The notes beneath the pieces are model-generated. The model had not been told where the DNA came from and did no database searches. It saw only the letters and a program-made list of their open reading frames with translations. The translations under genes were made by a program, and so were the position numbers. From Lentilactobacillus laojiaonis (GTDB lineage: Bacteria > Bacillota > Bacilli > Lactobacillales > Lactobacillaceae), in assembly GCF_020616595.1 (NCBI RefSeq), contig NZ_CP085278.1:744001-808000 (forward strand): a DNA stretch of 64,000 nt, given 5' to 3'. The stretch's first letter is position 1. Every line of letters starts with the position of its first letter. Positions 27,164 to 39,449 of this stretch are shown one piece after another.

Positions 27164-28423
27164 CTACTTTTCTTTACAAAGATAAATTGCTCGTAATTTC
27201 ATCTGATTAGCGACTTTAACTACATCTTCTTTGCTAACTCGATTAATACCTTCGATCCATTCCTCATCATTCCAAGAAATTTTTAGCACGGATTGAATAT
27301 ACTCACGATCAACAATTGTTCTTAAATAATCATTTTCGGCAAAGTGATGATTAATCATTGCATTTTTGATATTGTCAATCAATTTTATATCAAATTGACC
27401 GGCTTGAATTAATCTAAGTTGATCCTCAATTTCCTGAATTGCTTGATCTACTTTGGATAATTCTACCCCAGCTTGTACATTAATCATCCCAGTTAGCGAA
27501 CTATAACCACTATGAATATCGTATGCTAATCCCGATTTTTCTCTTACATTAGTAAAAAGCATCGATTGACCAGTGCCACCAAACAATTGATTAAAAATAG
27601 TTGCTGCAAAATAATTGGCATCACCATAATACACGGGTAAATAGTATCCTAAGTTAATTACCGACTGTGATCCTACAAATTCTTCTTCAAGACGGCTAAC
27701 TTCAGTTTTATCATTAGGAATACTTGGAATGGGATATTTTTGAACCTGTCGTTGTGTAATAAAATCAAAATTTTTGATTTCATCTAAAATAATTTCCGAA
27801 TTAAAATTACCGGCAACCAAAATATTAACCTGTTCTTGAGAAATCATTTGTCTGTAAAATTCATATAGACTATTGGCATCTACACTAGCCAATTGAGAAC
27901 TAGTTCCCAAAATGTATTGACCTTGTGGATCATCATGGTCATAAAATAAACTTTGTAACTTGATTTTTGAATAATATTCTTTATTTTCAATAATTGAATT
28001 TACATAATTAATCATATTTTTCTGATGAAGCTTAAAAAAATCATTTTGAAAATGTGCATCTTCAACTAATGGTTTTTCAATTACTTCCTTTAAAAATAGT
28101 ATTATTTGATGGAATAATTCAGTTTTACCGGGTATAAATGCATCATTTGGAAACGAAATTTTAATTTGGAGGACGTGCTGGTTACCATATTTAAATACAC
28201 TAACCCCATAATTAGCTCCGAACATTTTTGATAGTTCTCTAGATATCTTTAATTCACTATTATATTTTTGTGAACTATTTTCTAACATTTCCGCCAATAA
28301 TGACTTATAGGCAAAGTTTTCACTGTTTAATGGAGCGGTAAAGTTAATAACAATAATTGAATTTTTAAATTTTTTGGTGTTAATGACATCTAAGTCAACA
28401 CCTTCTTGAATTGAATAATGCAT
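27164..28423 (-). CDS. ymfF: M16 family peptidase homologue lacking the zinc motif (YmfF-like)
   Basis: Protein of about 419 aa with M16 fold features, including GGTGQSMLFTNVREKSGLAYDI in the C-terminal lobe, the substrate-handling Arg/Tyr region. At the position of the zinc site it reads LLAEMLEN rather than HxxEH, so it should be catalytically inactive and probably partners YmfH. The start is placed at ATG 28423 after GGGAG; an upstream in-frame start at 28453 would bury that site. First gene of the ymfF-ymfH-rodZ-pgsA run. Confidence 0.88.
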   Translation of the reverse strand: MHYSIQEGVDLDVINTKKFKNSIIVINFTAPLNSENFAYKSLLAEMLENSSQKYNSELKISRELSKMFGANYGVSVFKYGNQHVLQIKISFPNDAFIPGKTELFHQIILFLKEVIEKPLVEDAHFQNDFFKLHQKNMINYVNSIIENKEYYSKIKLQSLFYDHDDPQGQYILGTSSQLASVDANSLYEFYRQMISQEQVNILVAGNFNSEIILDEIKNFDFITQRQVQKYPIPSIPNDKTEVSRLEEEFVGSQSVINLGYYLPVYYGDANYFAATIFNQLFGGTGQSMLFTNVREKSGLAYDIHSGYSSLTGMINVQAGVELSKVDQAIQEIEDQLRLIQAGQFDIKLIDNIKNAMINHHFAENDYLRTIVDREYIQSVLKISWNDEEWIEGINRVSKEDVVKVANQMKLRAIYLCKEK

Positions 28424-28483
28424 TTCTATCTCCCTTAATCTAATAAATACCATACTAGAATAAATAAATTAAAACTACAATAT

Positions 28484-28515
28484 AAAAATGACTAAACTTA
28501 CGTTTAGTCATTTTT
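28484..28515 (-). terminator. Intrinsic terminator after the amino-acid ABC importer operon
   Basis: Perfect 14-base arms (28484-28497 and 28502-28515) around a 4-base loop, with a T-rich tract on the minus strand. It overlaps the 3' end of the binding-protein gene. Confidence 0.85.
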
Positions 28516-29334
28516 TTGTCCCAACCATTTACGATTGATTTTGGCTAATTCTCCATTTTTCGCTAATTTATTAATGCCAAAATCAATTTTATTTTTTAAT
28601 TTAGTATCATTTTTCTTCATACCGACCCCATAAAATTCACTCGGATAATTAACTGGCGTCACATTATATTTAATATATTTTGCTTGCATTTTATTAATAT
28701 AGTAATTGGCATACACTTGATCAATTAGCAGTCCTTGAATTCGGTTAGCATTTAGATCAATAAATGCATCTGTAAAAGTGTCATACATAATAGGATTATT
28801 ATCTTTTATATATTTTTTTAAAACTTTTGGATGCTTGTCTAGGTCCATAGACCCCGCTGAGCCAGTTTGAACTCCTAAAACTCGATTATTCATTTTTTGT
28901 GGATTGGTAATTTTTTGATCAGTTTTACTTACCAAAACTTGTCCATTTTTTAAATATGGTTTACTAAATAGCATTGATTTTTCTCTTTGTTCATTAATTG
29001 TAAAGCCATTCCAAATTAGGTCAATCGTTCCATTATTTAATTCAGTAGTATTCATTGACCAGTCAATTGGTTGAAATTCAACAGTAACTCCATACTGTTG
29101 AAATACGGCTCGTGCTAAGTCCACATCATAACCAACGATTTTTCCACTTTTCGTTTGAAAATCCATTGGCACAAATGAATCATCAATACCAATAACTACT
29201 TTTTTATTTTTCATTATTTTAGACCATGTGTTTGGATCCTGTTTTAAATCTTTACGATCTTTAATCCGACATCCACTTAAAGTTAATGTAAAAATCAGAA
29301 TTACTAAAGTTACTAAATTTAATTTTTTCATCAT
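28504..29334 (-). CDS. Amino-acid ABC transporter substrate-binding lipoprotein
   Basis: Extracytoplasmic solute-binding protein of the polar amino-acid (PAAT) family, 276 aa. The N-terminal signal peptide has the lipobox LSGC near residue 20, so it should be lipid-anchored outside the membrane. The body shows the SBP_bac_3 fold: VVIGIDDSFVPMDF, GYDVDLARAVF, and WNGFTINEQRE. Last gene of a three-gene importer operon, 12 bases after the ATPase. It belongs to the same family as glutamine and histidine binders; the ligand cannot be read from sequence. Confidence 0.9.
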   Translation of the reverse strand: MMKKLNLVTLVILIFTLTLSGCRIKDRKDLKQDPNTWSKIMKNKKVVIGIDDSFVPMDFQTKSGKIVGYDVDLARAVFQQYGVTVEFQPIDWSMNTTELNNGTIDLIWNGFTINEQREKSMLFSKPYLKNGQVLVSKTDQKITNPQKMNNRVLGVQTGSAGSMDLDKHPKVLKKYIKDNNPIMYDTFTDAFIDLNANRIQGLLIDQVYANYYINKMQAKYIKYNVTPVNYPSEFYGVGMKKNDTKLKNKIDFGINKLAKNGELAKINRKWLGQKND

Positions 29335-29346
29335 AAAATCACCTAT

Positions 29347-29982
29347 TTATTTGATTGGTGTCACTTTTAATATCTCATCTGCGACATTTTCAGCAAATTC
29401 CATATCATGAGTGATCACAATTTGCGTTACTGCATCTTTTTTTAGATTTAAAATTAATTTAGCAACTTCTTTTCTTAAATCTGGATCCAAGGCAGAAGTT
29501 GGCTCATCGTAACATAATATTTTGGGATTCATCGCTAAAGCCCTAACGATCGCAACTCGTTGTTGTTGGCCTCCAGACAATTGATACGGATAAAGATTTT
29601 CTTTACCACTTAAATCTAATTGATCCAGCATCTTTTGTGCTTCATCTTTGGCAAGTTTAGTTGCCACTCCTTTAACTTTTACAGGAGCTAAAATAATATT
29701 TTCCATAACCGTTAAATTAGGAAATAACTGATAATTTTGAAAAACTGCACCGACAATTGAATTTTTGGGATCTGAATTAGTGGGATCAAATTGATGACCA
29801 TTCCAAAAAAATTCTCCTGAGTCAACATTTTCTAGTCCTATAATGCATCTTAGCAAGGTAGTTTTTCCAGCTCCAGACGGTCCAACAATTGCTAAAATTT
29901 GGCCAGTTGGAATTTTAATTGATAAAGAATTAATAATTGTTTTATTACCAAATTTTTTGGTTAAATTTTTAATTTCTAGCAT
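29347..29982 (-). CDS. Amino-acid ABC transporter ATP-binding protein
   Basis: Cytosolic ATPase of the PAAT importer family (GlnQ/HisP type), 211 aa, somewhat shorter than the common 240. Walker A GPSGAGKTT lies near 34-42, the Q-loop in AVFQNYQLFP, the ABC signature LSGGQQQRV near 133, Walker B ILCYDEPTSALD near 155, and the H-loop in ITHDMEFA. It lies 19 bases after the permease gene and powers it. All ATP-handling motifs are present. Confidence 0.93.
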   Translation of the reverse strand: MLEIKNLTKKFGNKTIINSLSIKIPTGQILAIVGPSGAGKTTLLRCIIGLENVDSGEFFWNGHQFDPTNSDPKNSIVGAVFQNYQLFPNLTVMENIILAPVKVKGVATKLAKDEAQKMLDQLDLSGKENLYPYQLSGGQQQRVAIVRALAMNPKILCYDEPTSALDPDLRKEVAKLILNLKKDAVTQIVITHDMEFAENVADEILKVTPIK

Positions 29983-30000: not shown

Positions 30001-30645
30001 TTAACGCCAAACATTGGTTCTTTTTTCAATAGCCTTTAAAATATAGGTTGTTATGGCCGTTAATATTAGGTAAATTATTCCAACTAAAATTAATGGTAGT
30101 AAAGTAACATCTCTAGCCGTAGCCACATTACCAGCTCTAAGTAAATCACCAATTCCGATAACATAAACTAATGATGAATCTTTAATTAAATTAATTGTTT
30201 CATTACCAACTGATGGTAAAACAATTTTAAATACTTGAGGAGCTAATACATATCTTAAAGTTTGCCATTTACTCAATCGTAATAATTTGGCACTTTCAAT
30301 CTGTCCCTTAGGAATAGATTGAAATCCACCTCTAAATATCTCACTAAAATAAGCAGCATAATTCAATATAAATGCTATCAATGCTGCATTGTATCTGGAA
30401 AAAACAATTCCTAATAAAGGAAGACCATAAAATATAAATATTAATTGTAAAAGCAACGGGGTTCCGCGCATAATCAAAATATAAGTATTTAGTAGCCATT
30501 TAATAGGCTTAAATTTGCTAGTTAAGGTTACTCCTAATAAAATCCCCAATGGAATTGCAATAATTAGTGTTATAGCAAAGATCGATAAAGTTACTTTAGT
30601 CCCTCCTAATAAGGCGGGTAAAATTTGTTGAATATAATTAAGCAT
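30001..30645 (-). CDS. Amino-acid ABC transporter permease
   Basis: Membrane subunit of the PAAT importer, about 214 aa with five hydrophobic helices. The inner-membrane signature with RGTPLLLQLIF and the EAA-loop sequence (RGGFQSIPKGQIESAKLL) identify a HisM/GlnP-type permease. GGAGG followed six bases later by ATG 30645 defines the start; an earlier ATG at 30657 would place the ribosome binding site inside the gene. First gene of the operon, directly behind a T-box leader whose second terminator ends at this ribosome binding site. Confidence 0.93.
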   Translation of the reverse strand: MLNYIQQILPALLGGTKVTLSIFAITLIIAIPLGILLGVTLTSKFKPIKWLLNTYILIMRGTPLLLQLIFIFYGLPLLGIVFSRYNAALIAFILNYAAYFSEIFRGGFQSIPKGQIESAKLLRLSKWQTLRYVLAPQVFKIVLPSVGNETINLIKDSSLVYVIGIGDLLRAGNVATARDVTLLPLILVGIIYLILTAITTYILKAIEKRTNVWR

Positions 30646-30649
30646 TTTT

Positions 30650-31020
30650 TCCTCCATAAAAAAATCCCCTTAAGTTCTTCAATGAACTTAAGAGGACGAT
30701 TTGGTCGCGGTTCCACCTCAATTTGTAATTAACTTCGCAATTAATTACCTCAAAAAGTTTAGAAATAAAAAAGTCCTCTTAAGCCAATAGCTTAAGAGGA
30801 CGATTTTATCGTGGTTCCACCTCAAATTCAACTGTATCACTACAGTCCTTATGAGTTTATTTCTAAACTTCAACAATAACGTGTTTAACGATTTTCCCTA
30901 CTAAATTCATTCAGGAAAATGACTCATAGACGTGAAAGGTTATCATTAATTATCTCATTCCACCAGTCGAGACTCTCTTAAATTAATTAATAACCTAGTT
31001 CTACTCAATGTCGTTCTAAT
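30650..31020 (-). promoter_or_regulatory. T-box leader with one stem I and two antiterminator/terminator modules
   Basis: Stem I (about 30905-31012) has AGAGAG and GGUGGAA motifs. Module 1: hairpin at 30831-30846, T-box AGGTGGAACCACG at 30810-30822, and a terminator with 11-bp arms 30773-30783/30791-30801 plus T-run. Module 2: hairpin 30725-30748, T-box AGGTGGAACCGCG at 30706-30718, and a terminator with 13-bp arms 30665-30677/30684-30696 ending at the permease ribosome binding site. Module 2 has no stem I of its own. Both cores read UGGA, implying a tRNA with U as discriminator. The specifier loop reads CACG: ACG (Thr) or CAC (His), unresolved. A plausible promoter (TTGATT, 18, TTTAAT) lies just upstream. 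Confidence 0.85.
30755..30870 (-). repeat. Perfect 15-bp inverted repeat around T-box module 1
   Basis: The arms AAGTTTAGAAATAAA (30755-30769) and TTTATTTCTAAACTT (30856-30870) are exact reverse complements, separated by 86 bases that hold module 1 (hairpin, T-box, terminator). The 5' arm in the RNA can also fold alone as AGUUUA-GAAA-UAAACU. Confidence 0.85.
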
Positions 31021-31068
31021 ATTAAATTAATATTAACTATATTAAATCAATCTTAATTGAACGTCAAG

Positions 31069-31875
31069 TTAGTCTTTTTTAAACCAACTAGAAACTCGTT
31101 TCCAAAATGACTTATGGATTTCCTGTTCAATTTTCATTAAAGGTACTGATTCGCCTTCTAATCTTCTTGCCACGTCACGATATCCTTGACCAGCTGGATT
31201 ATCAGGATCTAAAACAATCGGTTCTCCATGGTTAGAAGTAGATATTACAGCGTCATCATCAAAAATAATTCCTAATAATTCTACTCCTAAGTGATGCGTA
31301 ATTTCATCAACATCCATCATAGAACCATCTTGCATCATGTGTCTTCTAATTCGATTAATGATTAAATGAGGCTCTTCTTGAAGTGGATTTCTTTCAAGTA
31401 AACCAACTACTCGATCAGCATCTCTAACCGCAGAAATTTCTGGAGTAGTAACAATAATCGCACTATCAGCACCGACAATTGCATTCATAAAACCTTGTTC
31501 AATACCGGCTGGACAATCTATAAATATATAATCAAAATTGGGTTTTAAATCATTAACGATCTTTAAAACTTGATCTTCATTTAATGCACTCTTATCAGTA
31601 TTTTGTGCGGCTGGTAATAAATAGAGTTTATCATCAAAACGTTTATCTTTAACTAGCGCTTGTGATAATTTAGCTCGATCATTAGCCACATCAACGATAT
31701 CATACATAATTCTATTATCTAGTCCTAAAACAACATCTAGATTTCTTAAACCAATATCCAAATCCATTAAACAAACTTTTTTACCCATCATTGCTAAGGC
31801 AGTGCCTAGATTGGCAGTAGTTGTGGTTTTACCAACTCCACCTTTTCCCGATGTAACTACATATGCTTTACCCAT
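31069..31875 (-). CDS. minD: Septum site-determining ATPase MinD
   Basis: Membrane-associated ParA-like ATPase that recruits MinC to block FtsZ assembly away from mid-cell. The 268 aa protein has the deviant Walker A KGGVGKTT at 11-18, switch motif with DCPAGIEQGF near 117, and a C-terminal amphipathic membrane-targeting helix (SFWKRVSSWFKKD). It overlaps the end of minC by eight bases, so translation is coupled. No minE lies here; in Gram-positive rods DivIVA/MinJ usually positions MinCD. Confidence 0.96.
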   Translation of the reverse strand: MGKAYVVTSGKGGVGKTTTTANLGTALAMMGKKVCLMDLDIGLRNLDVVLGLDNRIMYDIVDVANDRAKLSQALVKDKRFDDKLYLLPAAQNTDKSALNEDQVLKIVNDLKPNFDYIFIDCPAGIEQGFMNAIVGADSAIIVTTPEISAVRDADRVVGLLERNPLQEEPHLIINRIRRHMMQDGSMMDVDEITHHLGVELLGIIFDDDAVISTSNHGEPIVLDPDNPAGQGYRDVARRLEGESVPLMKIEQEIHKSFWKRVSSWFKKD

Positions 31876-36505: not shown

Positions 36506-39172
36506 TTAGCTATTTAATTGGTTCTTAATTTCAACTAAACGTTCTTGAGCAGCTTTTAATTTGTTTTGATAATCAGCTTGTTTTTCTTTTTCTTCATTAA
36601 CAACTGATTCTGGAGCATTACTTACAAATTTTTCATTAGATAGTTTTTTATTAGTGCGTTCTACTTCAGATTCAAACTTCTTAATCTCTTTTTCTAAACG
36701 ACTAACTTCTTCATCTAAACTAATCAATTCTTCTAACGGAATAAATACAGTAGCATCAGTAATAACTGCAGACATTGATAAGTTAGGAATATCTAAATCA
36801 TTACCAATTTCTAAATTCTTAGCATGCAAGAAGCGATCGATATATTCTTTATTTTCCTCAAAAATTGCTTTCAAATCAACATTATCAGTCTTAATTAAAA
36901 TATCGACAGCAGATGACAATGGTGCATTAGCTTCTGAACGAATATTACGAACTGCTTTAATTAAGTCAATTAAGGATGCCATATTAGCTTCTGCTTTAGG
37001 ATTATTAAATTCATCATTAACTTCTGGATATTTAGCAGTTACTAACGAATTACCATCATGTGGCATAGTTTGCCAAATATTTTCAGTTACAAATGGCATA
37101 ATTGGATGTAATAATCTTAGTGTTTGGTCTAATACATAAGCCAAAATATTTTGAGTATTAGAACGTAATTGATCATCATCACTACTTAAAGCTTCTTTAC
37201 TCATTTCAATGTACCAATCACAGAAATCATTCCAAATGAATTCATAGAGAGCACGACCAGCTTCACCAAAATTGTATTTATCAAATTCACGAGTGACATG
37301 TCCGATAACTTCATTTAAGCGACTCATAATCCATTGATCTGCCAATTGCCATTCACTTTGGTCCGGCAATTTAGGGGTGTCAATATCATTTAAATTCATA
37401 ATTACATATCGACTGGCATTCCAGATTTTATTAATAAAGTTCCATGCTGAATCCATCTTGTCATATGAGAATCTCAAATCTTGACCAGGAGTAGTTCCAT
37501 TAGATAAGAACCAACGCAAAGCATCTGAACCGTATTTATCAATAACATCCATCGGATCAATTCCATTACCTAATGACTTAGACATTTTACGTCCTTGTTC
37601 GTCACGAATTAGACCATGTAATAAAACATCTTTAAATGGACGTTCGTTAGTAAATTCTAAACTTTGGAAGATCATTCTAGATACCCAGAAGAATAAGATA
37701 TCATATCCCGTAACTAACGTATTAGTTGGGAAATAACGTTTATAATCTTCAGCTTCTTCATTAGGCCAACCCATTGTTGAAAATGGCCATAATCCAGATG
37801 AGAACCAAGTATCTAACACATCATTATCTTGTTCCCAATTTTCAATATCTTTAGGGGCTTCTGCTCCAACGTAAATTTCGCCAGTTTCTTTATGATACCA
37901 AGCAGGAATTCGATGTCCCCACCATAATTGTCTAGAAATAACCCAATCATGTACATTATCCATCCAATGAGTAAAGGTGTTTTCAAATCGTTCAGGAACA
38001 AAATTTACTCGATCATCAGTTTTTTGGTTATTTAATGCCATTTCTGCTAAAGGTTTCATTTTAACAAACCATTGTGTTGATAAACGGGATTCAACCTGTA
38101 CCCCAGTTCGTTCAGAATGTCCAACTGAATGTACAATTGGATCAATTTTTAGCATTAAGCCCAATTCTTCTAAATCATTAACAATTGCTTTTCTAGCTTC
38201 AAAACGATCCATACCATTATATTTACCAGCATTTTCATTCATAGTGGCATCTTCATTCATTGTATTAATTCGTTCTAAGTTATGACGATTACCCACTAAG
38301 AAATCGTTAGGATCATGAGCAGGAGTAATTTTAACCATTCCAGTACCAAATTCTGGATCCACATATTGATCAGCAATAATAGGAACCTTACGATTAACTA
38401 ACGGTACAATGACTTCTTTTCCAACTAGATCTTTATATCTTTCGTCACTGGGACTAACCGCAATCGCTACATCCCCCATCATAGTTTCAGGTCTAGTAGT
38501 AGCAATTTCAATATAGTCTTTTCCGTTGTAAGTTACACCGTCAGCTAATGGATATTTAACGTGATAAAAGGCTCCCTTATCATCTTCATGAATTACTTCA
38601 ATATCTGACAAGGCTGTTCTAGCTTGTGGATCCCAATTGATAATGTATTCTCCACGGTAAATTAAGCCCTTATTATATAGATCAACAAAGACCTTAGTTA
38701 CAGCTTCTGATAAGCCTTCATCTAACGTAAATCTTTCACGATCATAGTCTAATGAAAGTCCTAATTTTGCCCATTGTTTATGAATAGTATCTGCAAAACT
38801 ATCTTTCCATTCCCAAACTTGATCAATAAATTTATCTCTTCCTAGATCGTATCGACTAATTCCTTCTTCGCGTAACTTAGCCTCAACTTTTGCTTGGGTT
38901 GCTATACCGGCGTGGTCCATTCCTGGTAACCATAAGGTATCAAAACCTTGCATACGTTTTTGACGAATGATCATATCTTGAAGAGTAGTATCCCAAGCGT
39001 GACCTAAATGCAATTTACCAGTAACATTGGGTGGTGGTAAAACAATCGAAAATGGTTTTGCTTTCTTATCACCACTAGGTTTAAATACTCCTTCTTCTAG
39101 CCAAGTTTGATATTGGCCTTCCTCAACTTCGCTAGGATTGTACTTTTTAGACATTTCTTTATTAGATGCCAT
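36506..39172 (-). CDS. valS: Valine--tRNA ligase
   Basis: Class I aminoacyl-tRNA synthetase charging tRNA-Val. The 888 aa protein has the HIGH-type motif LHLGH in [13 protein letters not shown] near residue 55, the CP1 editing domain in the first half ([15 protein letters not shown]), KMSKS in [14 protein letters not shown] near 530, anticodon-binding helices, and a C-terminal coiled arm. Full length and intact. A T-box leader with a Val codon lies upstream. Confidence 0.98.
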
Positions 39173-39189: not shown

Positions 39190-39449
39190 ATTTTTTTAAA
39201 ATAAAAAGCACTTCTCCTAATAAAATAGGACGAAGTGCTTCGCGGTACCACCTAAATTGGAATAAATTATTATTCCCACTTGAATCAAAAATAACGGCTT
39301 GATCTCCGTCTAATTAATAAATTAGAAATGAAACTCGCAAGCTTACTTTCAAATTAAACTGTTAAAAGTCTCACAGCAATCAACTTTTTTTCTGAAAACA
39401 TATTTAATTTTACTTACCTGGTCTTAATTTCGTATTAACGTTAATTATG
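39190..39449 (-). promoter_or_regulatory. T-box leader, tRNA-Val type
   Basis: T-box AGGTGGTACCGCG is at 39240-39252, and a strong terminator with arms around 39204-39214 and 39232-39240 is followed by a T-run. Stem I has a GCUGUGA-type distal loop. A specifier loop framed by AAAUUAAA/UUUAAUUU and GUAAGU/GCUUGC helices presents GUA (Val) followed by A. The UGGU core fits an A discriminator. It controls valS by tRNA-Val charging. Confidence 0.9.

Follow-up and report, generated by a model that had tools for sequence, protein, structure and literature searches.

The perfect inverted repeat described here most probably supplies the alternative partners of a strand exchange in the RNA of a partially tandem T-box specific for histidine, by which one stem I and its tRNA would be read twice; we give this reading a probability of about 0.74. 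The repeat lies in the window, a 64,000-nucleotide stretch of the Lentilactobacillus laojiaonis genome (contig NZ_CP085278.1), in a leader between minD (31069-31875, minus strand, upstream of the leader) and an amino-acid ABC transporter operon, and this leader is encoded on the minus strand. In agreement with a preliminary description of the sequence, its two 15-bp arms (30755-30769 and 30856-30870) are 100% complementary, lie 86 nt apart and bracket the first antiterminator/terminator module (module 1). On the RNA, arm A occupies 30870-30856 (AAGUUUAGAAAUAAA) and arm B 30769-30755 (UUUAUUUCUAAACUU), and the A-B helix is lengthened to 16 pairs by one G-U pair. Comparison with related leaders supports this helix well, and shows covariation of the arms, competition with a linker hairpin (LH) and equal spacing of the two modules. 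The arms probably let one tRNA-sensing domain take two stop-or-go decisions in series.

The upstream part of the leader is matched by the Rfam T-box model RF00230 from 31017 to 30793 (minus strand) with 100.5 bits, compared with a gathering score of 93. The match runs from stem I to module 1, whereas arm B and module 2 lie outside it, and annotation that relies on Rfam only ends with module 1 and leaves the latter half of the leader unrecognized. Beyond the match, a stem III, an antiterminator with a T-box core and a terminator each occur once more; because one stem I is thus combined with two antiterminator/terminator modules, the leader is a partially tandem T-box. In both modules, an antiterminator with a UGGN bulge competes with a terminator, and the modules form a 38-nt direct repeat with 89% identity. 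A second stem I ahead of module 2, which would make the T-box fully tandem, is absent: the cores are 104 nt apart, and between terminator 1 and antiterminator 2 there are arm B and stem III of module 2 and nothing more.

Read along the minus strand, a probable promoter (TTGACG, 17 nt, TAATAT; 31039-31067; 9/12 in a consensus scan) lies between minD and the leader, although the three promoter-like sites of the region do not exceed the number in shuffled sequences (mean 2.2). Within stem I, the specifier codon is read as CAC (His) at 30932-30934, and every one of the 165 compared leaders has CAC at the corresponding position (163 found by pattern, two by eye). The stem IIA/B region with its conserved CGUUA (30876-30890) was located by the Rfam alignment and its letters, and CGUUA likewise recurs in 165 of 165 leaders. 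It is followed by LH (AGUUUA-GAAA-UAAACU, 30854-30869), stem III of module 1 (30831-30846; Rfam alignment and fold), antiterminator 1 (GAGG-UGGAACC-...-CCUC, 30796-30823; Rfam alignment, fold and letters) and the terminator 1 stem-loop (30773-30801) with its U run. Downstream of arm B, stem III of module 2 (30725-30748) was assigned from the sequence and alignment with relatives, antiterminator 2 (30692-30719) from the sequence, the second T-box core and the repeat of module 1, and terminator 2 occupies 30664-30697.

The regulated gene encodes an amino-acid ABC transporter permease (open reading frame 30001-30657, minus strand; HEQRo_perm_3TM above its cutoff). Its longest reading frame begins (30657) in the tail of terminator 2, and the true start is probably the second ATG at 30645, which follows a GGAGG. 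On the same strand and in the same operon are an ABC transporter ATPase (29347-29982), identified at the family level with none of the best 25 of 190 models reaching its cutoff, and an amino-acid ABC substrate-binding protein (28504-29334), also placed at the family level, where 0 of 13 models reach the cutoff. The histidine specifier fits such an amino-acid transporter operon, for which the profile models leave the substrate unsettled. Directly downstream of the transporter genes lies a gene for a YfmF-family protein (associated with EF-P modification, above cutoff; 27164-28453, minus strand), which is perhaps co-transcribed with them.

The position of the two arms relates them to a common hairpin. 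LH stands between the IIA/B motif CGUUA and stem III, and arm A comprises its 5' strand, its loop and part of its 3' strand. As noted in the preliminary description, arm A can form this GAAA-loop hairpin by itself (-3.2 kcal/mol; 5 of 200 shuffles are equally good), and arm B starts within the T run behind terminator 1 (stem 30801-30773). Arm B ends just ahead of the purines that open module 2 and is predicted by folding to be unstructured when alone. Aligned with relatives, it resembles a copy of the LH 3' strand, and its upstream part is complementary to the LH loop. As they use a common 5' strand, LH and the A-B helix are mutually exclusive. Comparison thus upholds the helix that the preliminary description had proposed to loop out module 1, but recasts its nature: because arm A sits in a standing hairpin and arm B is a second 3' strand for it, the pairing would be a strand exchange with LH rather than a new helix.

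All 24 genomes searched in the genus contain the leader. As expected if both arms matter wherever both modules are kept, all 24 leaders carry two cores, and in every one of them arm B pairs with the arm A of the same leader, the weakest by pairs forming an 11-pair helix (n = 24). Two T-box cores 82-112 nt apart occur in at least 160 of 397 genomes (17 of 40 genera) of the family, where the reversed pattern gave one match, in at least 59 of 395 genomes (19 of 80 genera, family members included) of the order, and in at least 30 of 398 genomes (21 of 267 genera) of the phylum, again with one match of the reversed pattern; these counts are lower bounds because diverged cores, such as those of two of the 24 genus members, escape the pattern.

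For covariation tests, 24 loci from the genus, 60 from a DNA search and 100 from pattern matches were combined with named loci into 174 core pairs, the choice from search matches being non-random, by score and genus. Removal of nine of the 174, whose spacing exceeded 140 nt or whose arm pair was a duplicate, left 165 distinct leaders from 25 genera. In 161 of the 165, the best ungapped helix that joins the linker to the inter-module region begins 3-8 nt past CGUUA. At least 10 A-B pairs are formed in 153 leaders and fewer in 12 (weakest 6), seven of which belong to a second family of the order. The summed helix score of own arms was 4601 over the 165 leaders, versus 3876 (sd 51, maximum 4061) when arm B was permuted within genera (2000 permutations); with one leader for each of the 25 genera, own arms scored 663 versus 349 (sd 15, maximum 404) for deranged arms. 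Own arms therefore beat swapped arms, as covariation in relatives with both modules predicts. The same helix can be built from quite unlike letters, as in the loci L017 (GAAGUUUAGUUAUUUAAA/UUUAAAUAACUAAACUUC), L204 (GUGGUUGAAAAACA/UGUUUUUCAACCAC) and L232 (CGAGUUUGAUCAAAU/AUUUGAUCAAACUCG).

Compensatory changes, which the preliminary description had named as a check, are also found within the genus: in an alignment of the 24 leaders built without regard to structure, 5 of 12 A-B pairs changed on both sides (14 such cells). In this alignment, 92.4% of A-B cells are paired, no shuffle out of 500 reaches the real alignment on any of five measures, and shifting the partner by one column lowers pairing from 92% to 45-49%. 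The helix score of 12 single-module controls was at most 15.0, compared with a mean of 27.9 for partial doubles. L031 and L127 (score 26.5) were rejected as controls of this kind, since both carry arm B and a second module whose core had escaped the pattern; if they are kept among the controls (14), just 96 of the 165 partial doubles score above the control maximum. The upstream region allowed for pairing was narrowed because, when it was wide, arm B was matched with stem II in numerous species. A multiple alignment with a single arm pair from each genus was discarded after the aligner had shifted the arms.

Folding energies, calculated here with tRNA, the IIA/B pseudoknot and kinetics excluded, are consistent with the comparison. 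They were computed for the 125 leaders in which a strict rule located antiterminator 1; the other 40 of the 165 were dropped. With antiterminator 1 imposed, the A-B helix is part of the minimum-energy fold in 120 of 125 leaders and is not preferred in five, four of them from one genus. The median gain from arm B pairing is -11.4 kcal/mol versus -3.9 kcal/mol for shuffled arm B; none of 20 shuffles matches the own arm B in 91 of the 125 leaders and at least one does in 34. For the window leader, the gain is -11.5 versus about -2.9 kcal/mol for shuffled arms, with 0 of 20 as good and all 16 pairs formed. These figures replace a count with looser constraints (144 of 149), in which some rows had impossible energies with gains of up to +21.9; a shuffle control on 122 leaders, from which rows with impossible energies had been dropped, was not used.

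Since arm B is kin to the LH 3' strand, a match to the LH 5' strand could by itself be passive; the deciding positions are those of the LH loop. When only the stem strand was used to set the register (159 of the 165 leaders), 495 of 647 LH-loop positions (76.5%) form Watson-Crick pairs with arm B, compared with 32.9% for arm B swapped from other genera and 45.5% for arm B from the same genus but a different loop, whereas identity between loop and arm B, expected of a direct copy, is seen in 164 of 647 (25.3%). This bears out the loop pairing that the preliminary description had suggested as a possible kissing start. An earlier loop test (539 of 660 Watson-Crick) was set aside because its register had used the whole helix including the loop. 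For LH itself, a hairpin of at least 4 pairs was fitted by folding in 161 of 165 leaders. Within the 24 genus leaders LH has no double change and its pairing is not above shuffles (93.5% vs 93.7%), because the stem hardly varies (5 of 7 pairs invariant); across genera (one leader each), the score with the own 3' strand is 359 versus 246 (sd 12) with those of other genera, a comparison in which the choice of LH by folding favours the own strand. The leaders thus contain two exclusive, conserved helices with a common strand, of which LH is without covariation inside the genus.

The loop bears most directly on the idea that arm B is a left-over of duplication, a copied LH 3' strand whose complementarity is a passive by-product. 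The direct repeat of the modules and the likeness of arm B to the LH 3' strand would fit such an origin, yet a copy would keep the LH loop, which is complemented instead, and double changes occur at the A-B pairing columns but not in LH pairing within the genus. Already contradicted by the complemented loops, this explanation was rejected as very improbable. Chance complementarity of AT-rich sequence draws on the facts that 1 of 2000 dinucleotide-shuffled versions of the downstream linker scores as high as the helix of the window leader and that shuffled arms reach the own score in 417 of 16500 over all leaders, so that the arms of some species are unremarkable singly; in 28 of 165 leaders, a segment other than arm A is an equally good partner for arm B. 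Conservation and covariation across 25 genera and the permutation controls nevertheless speak against chance, which we rejected and regard as next to impossible.

The repeat might also act on terminator 1 itself or as DNA, as an operator or hairpin, and not on module 2, as the overlap of arm B with the terminator 1 U run could suggest. However, the decision at terminator 1 should already have been made when arm B emerges from the polymerase, and the arms are locked to RNA landmarks, CGUUA upstream and the discriminator purines downstream, while their sequence varies with compensation; this possibility was rejected and appears even slightly more remote than a duplication left-over. A different objection accepts the A-B helix as real but lets it only remove module 1, insulate module 2 or protect the leader RNA, module 2 binding tRNA afresh or the first tRNA leaving. 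All structural evidence fits this function equally well. We nevertheless consider it unlikely, for module 2 lacks a separate stem I that could hold a tRNA, and the distance between the paired strand and the purine string is equal for modules 1 and 2 in 138 of 157 leaders, an exact spacing that placement beside stem I requires and insulation does not.

For the strand exchange that we favour, we propose the following hypothetical course, in which (i) arm A pairs locally during synthesis of module 1 to form LH, at the foot of which discriminator 1 (stem III and antiterminator 1) would read the 3' end of the stem I-bound tRNA; (ii) uncharged tRNA would lead to read-through of terminator 1 and arm B would then leave the polymerase, being present only in transcripts past this terminator; (iii) arm B would start on the LH loop, pair with the LH 5' strand and displace the LH 3' strand; (iv) the resulting helix of about 10-20 bp would enclose module 1, with its foot at about the place of the LH foot, and because strands enter and leave a helix at its foot, module 2 would exit where module 1 did, with the same spacing; (v) the same stem I and tRNA would be read again at terminator 2. 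We infer the formation of the helix in the cell, the order and kinetics of these events, the displacement of module 1 and the reuse of stem I with its tRNA. As module 2 is without a stem I, bringing it to the stem I-tRNA complex would be the simplest function of the exchange. Two serial readings would multiply the read-through probabilities and could thereby give a lower leak and a steeper response at no cost of a second stem I.

If this mechanism is true, it would explain how partially tandem T-boxes work. The arms suggest a concrete, sequence-specific way in which one ligand-binding domain could serve two expression platforms in turn by helix exchange; the mechanism predicts the key nucleotides, whose mutation should change only the second decision, and suggests a simple design for sharper RNA switches. 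We see even chances that it is general among the partially tandem T-boxes of Firmicutes, such that a toehold-started strand exchange of LH hands stem I and its bound tRNA to the second module and the serial double check amounts to RNA proofreading.

Earlier surveys reportedly include those of Vitreschak in 2008 and Gutierrez-Preciado in 2009. The window leader has in common with the T-box riboswitches of RF00230 a stem I with specifier, stem II, IIA/B, stem III, UGGN antiterminator and terminator, and differs from them by a second module of stem III, antiterminator and terminator and by arm B. Partially tandem T-boxes, as we interpret the term in the consulted part of a 2020 T-box review (PMC7583486), have one tRNA-decoding domain and repeated antiterminators and terminators, as here, and their mode of action is called unknown there; the specific, covarying strand exchange proposed here as mode of action goes beyond that account. 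Fully tandem T-boxes, described in the consulted part of PMC12452182 as complete sensor-plus-regulatory units in a row, also take two serial termination decisions, but the window leader has no room for a second stem I. In the excerpts of PMC9413887 considered, histidine T-boxes on hisYZ*X transporter operons of Lactobacillales are mostly single and are tandem in five Enterococcus species; operon kind and specificity are as here, and these excerpts mention no inter-module pairing. The c-di-GMP riboswitch Bc1 likewise places two terminators behind one sensor, but it is a small-molecule riboswitch, and the abstract of PMC11218506 mentions no strand exchange by which the sensor would be presented again to the second terminator. 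PMC9481103, judging by its consulted sections, surveys tandem riboswitches and adjacent aptamers, and such an arm pairing finds no mention in those of PMC2494555 or PMC7778990. In the literature searched, which left out most subscription journals, no description of a helix between T-box modules was found.

In one common but non-defining T-box trait the window leader departs from expectation. The fourth UGGN base is A in both modules (30819-30816 and 30715-30712), while the tRNA-His here carries G-1 and C73 (further locus, L173:850-923), and a Watson-Crick match of this base to the tRNA discriminator is therefore absent from the window leader. Among the 165 histidine leaders, the base is G in only two for module 1 and four for module 2, and it seems that histidine T-boxes do not recognize the discriminator base through a Watson-Crick pair. 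In tRNA-His, G-1 pairs with C73; for this reason the missing match is probably a peculiarity of histidine without bearing on family membership.

Partially tandem T-boxes also occur outside Lactobacillales, apparently in Clostridia and relatives (L276-L307), with Phe, Tyr or Trp specifiers as read by eye. Many of them have a second GUACC-type arm ahead of module 2 that is like the LH 3' strand, with weaker support than in Lactobacillales; no convincing arm was seen by eye at the expected place in L281, L282, L291, L292, L301 and L302, among others. Over 31 of the 32 loci (L306, in which no CGUUA-like motif was found, was left out), own arms scored 631.5 versus 502.8 (sd 17.4), a value reached in 0 of 5000 overall permutations; permutation within families reached it in 64 of 5000, a mild signal. 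With such a weaker version of the arm in clostridial partial doubles, the exchange would be a principle of the whole phylum.

Other T-box arrangements were encountered along with these leaders. In genus g23, L169 and L170 are fully tandem, with two and three complete elements and the specifier CGU (Arg) by eye, and the same genus also has the histidine partial doubles L150 and L175. The window itself contains a second, ordinary T-box (39223-39434, minus strand; Rfam 104.2 bits), behind which lies a gene for a large aminoacyl-tRNA synthetase (36506-39172) that, read by eye, resembles ValS.
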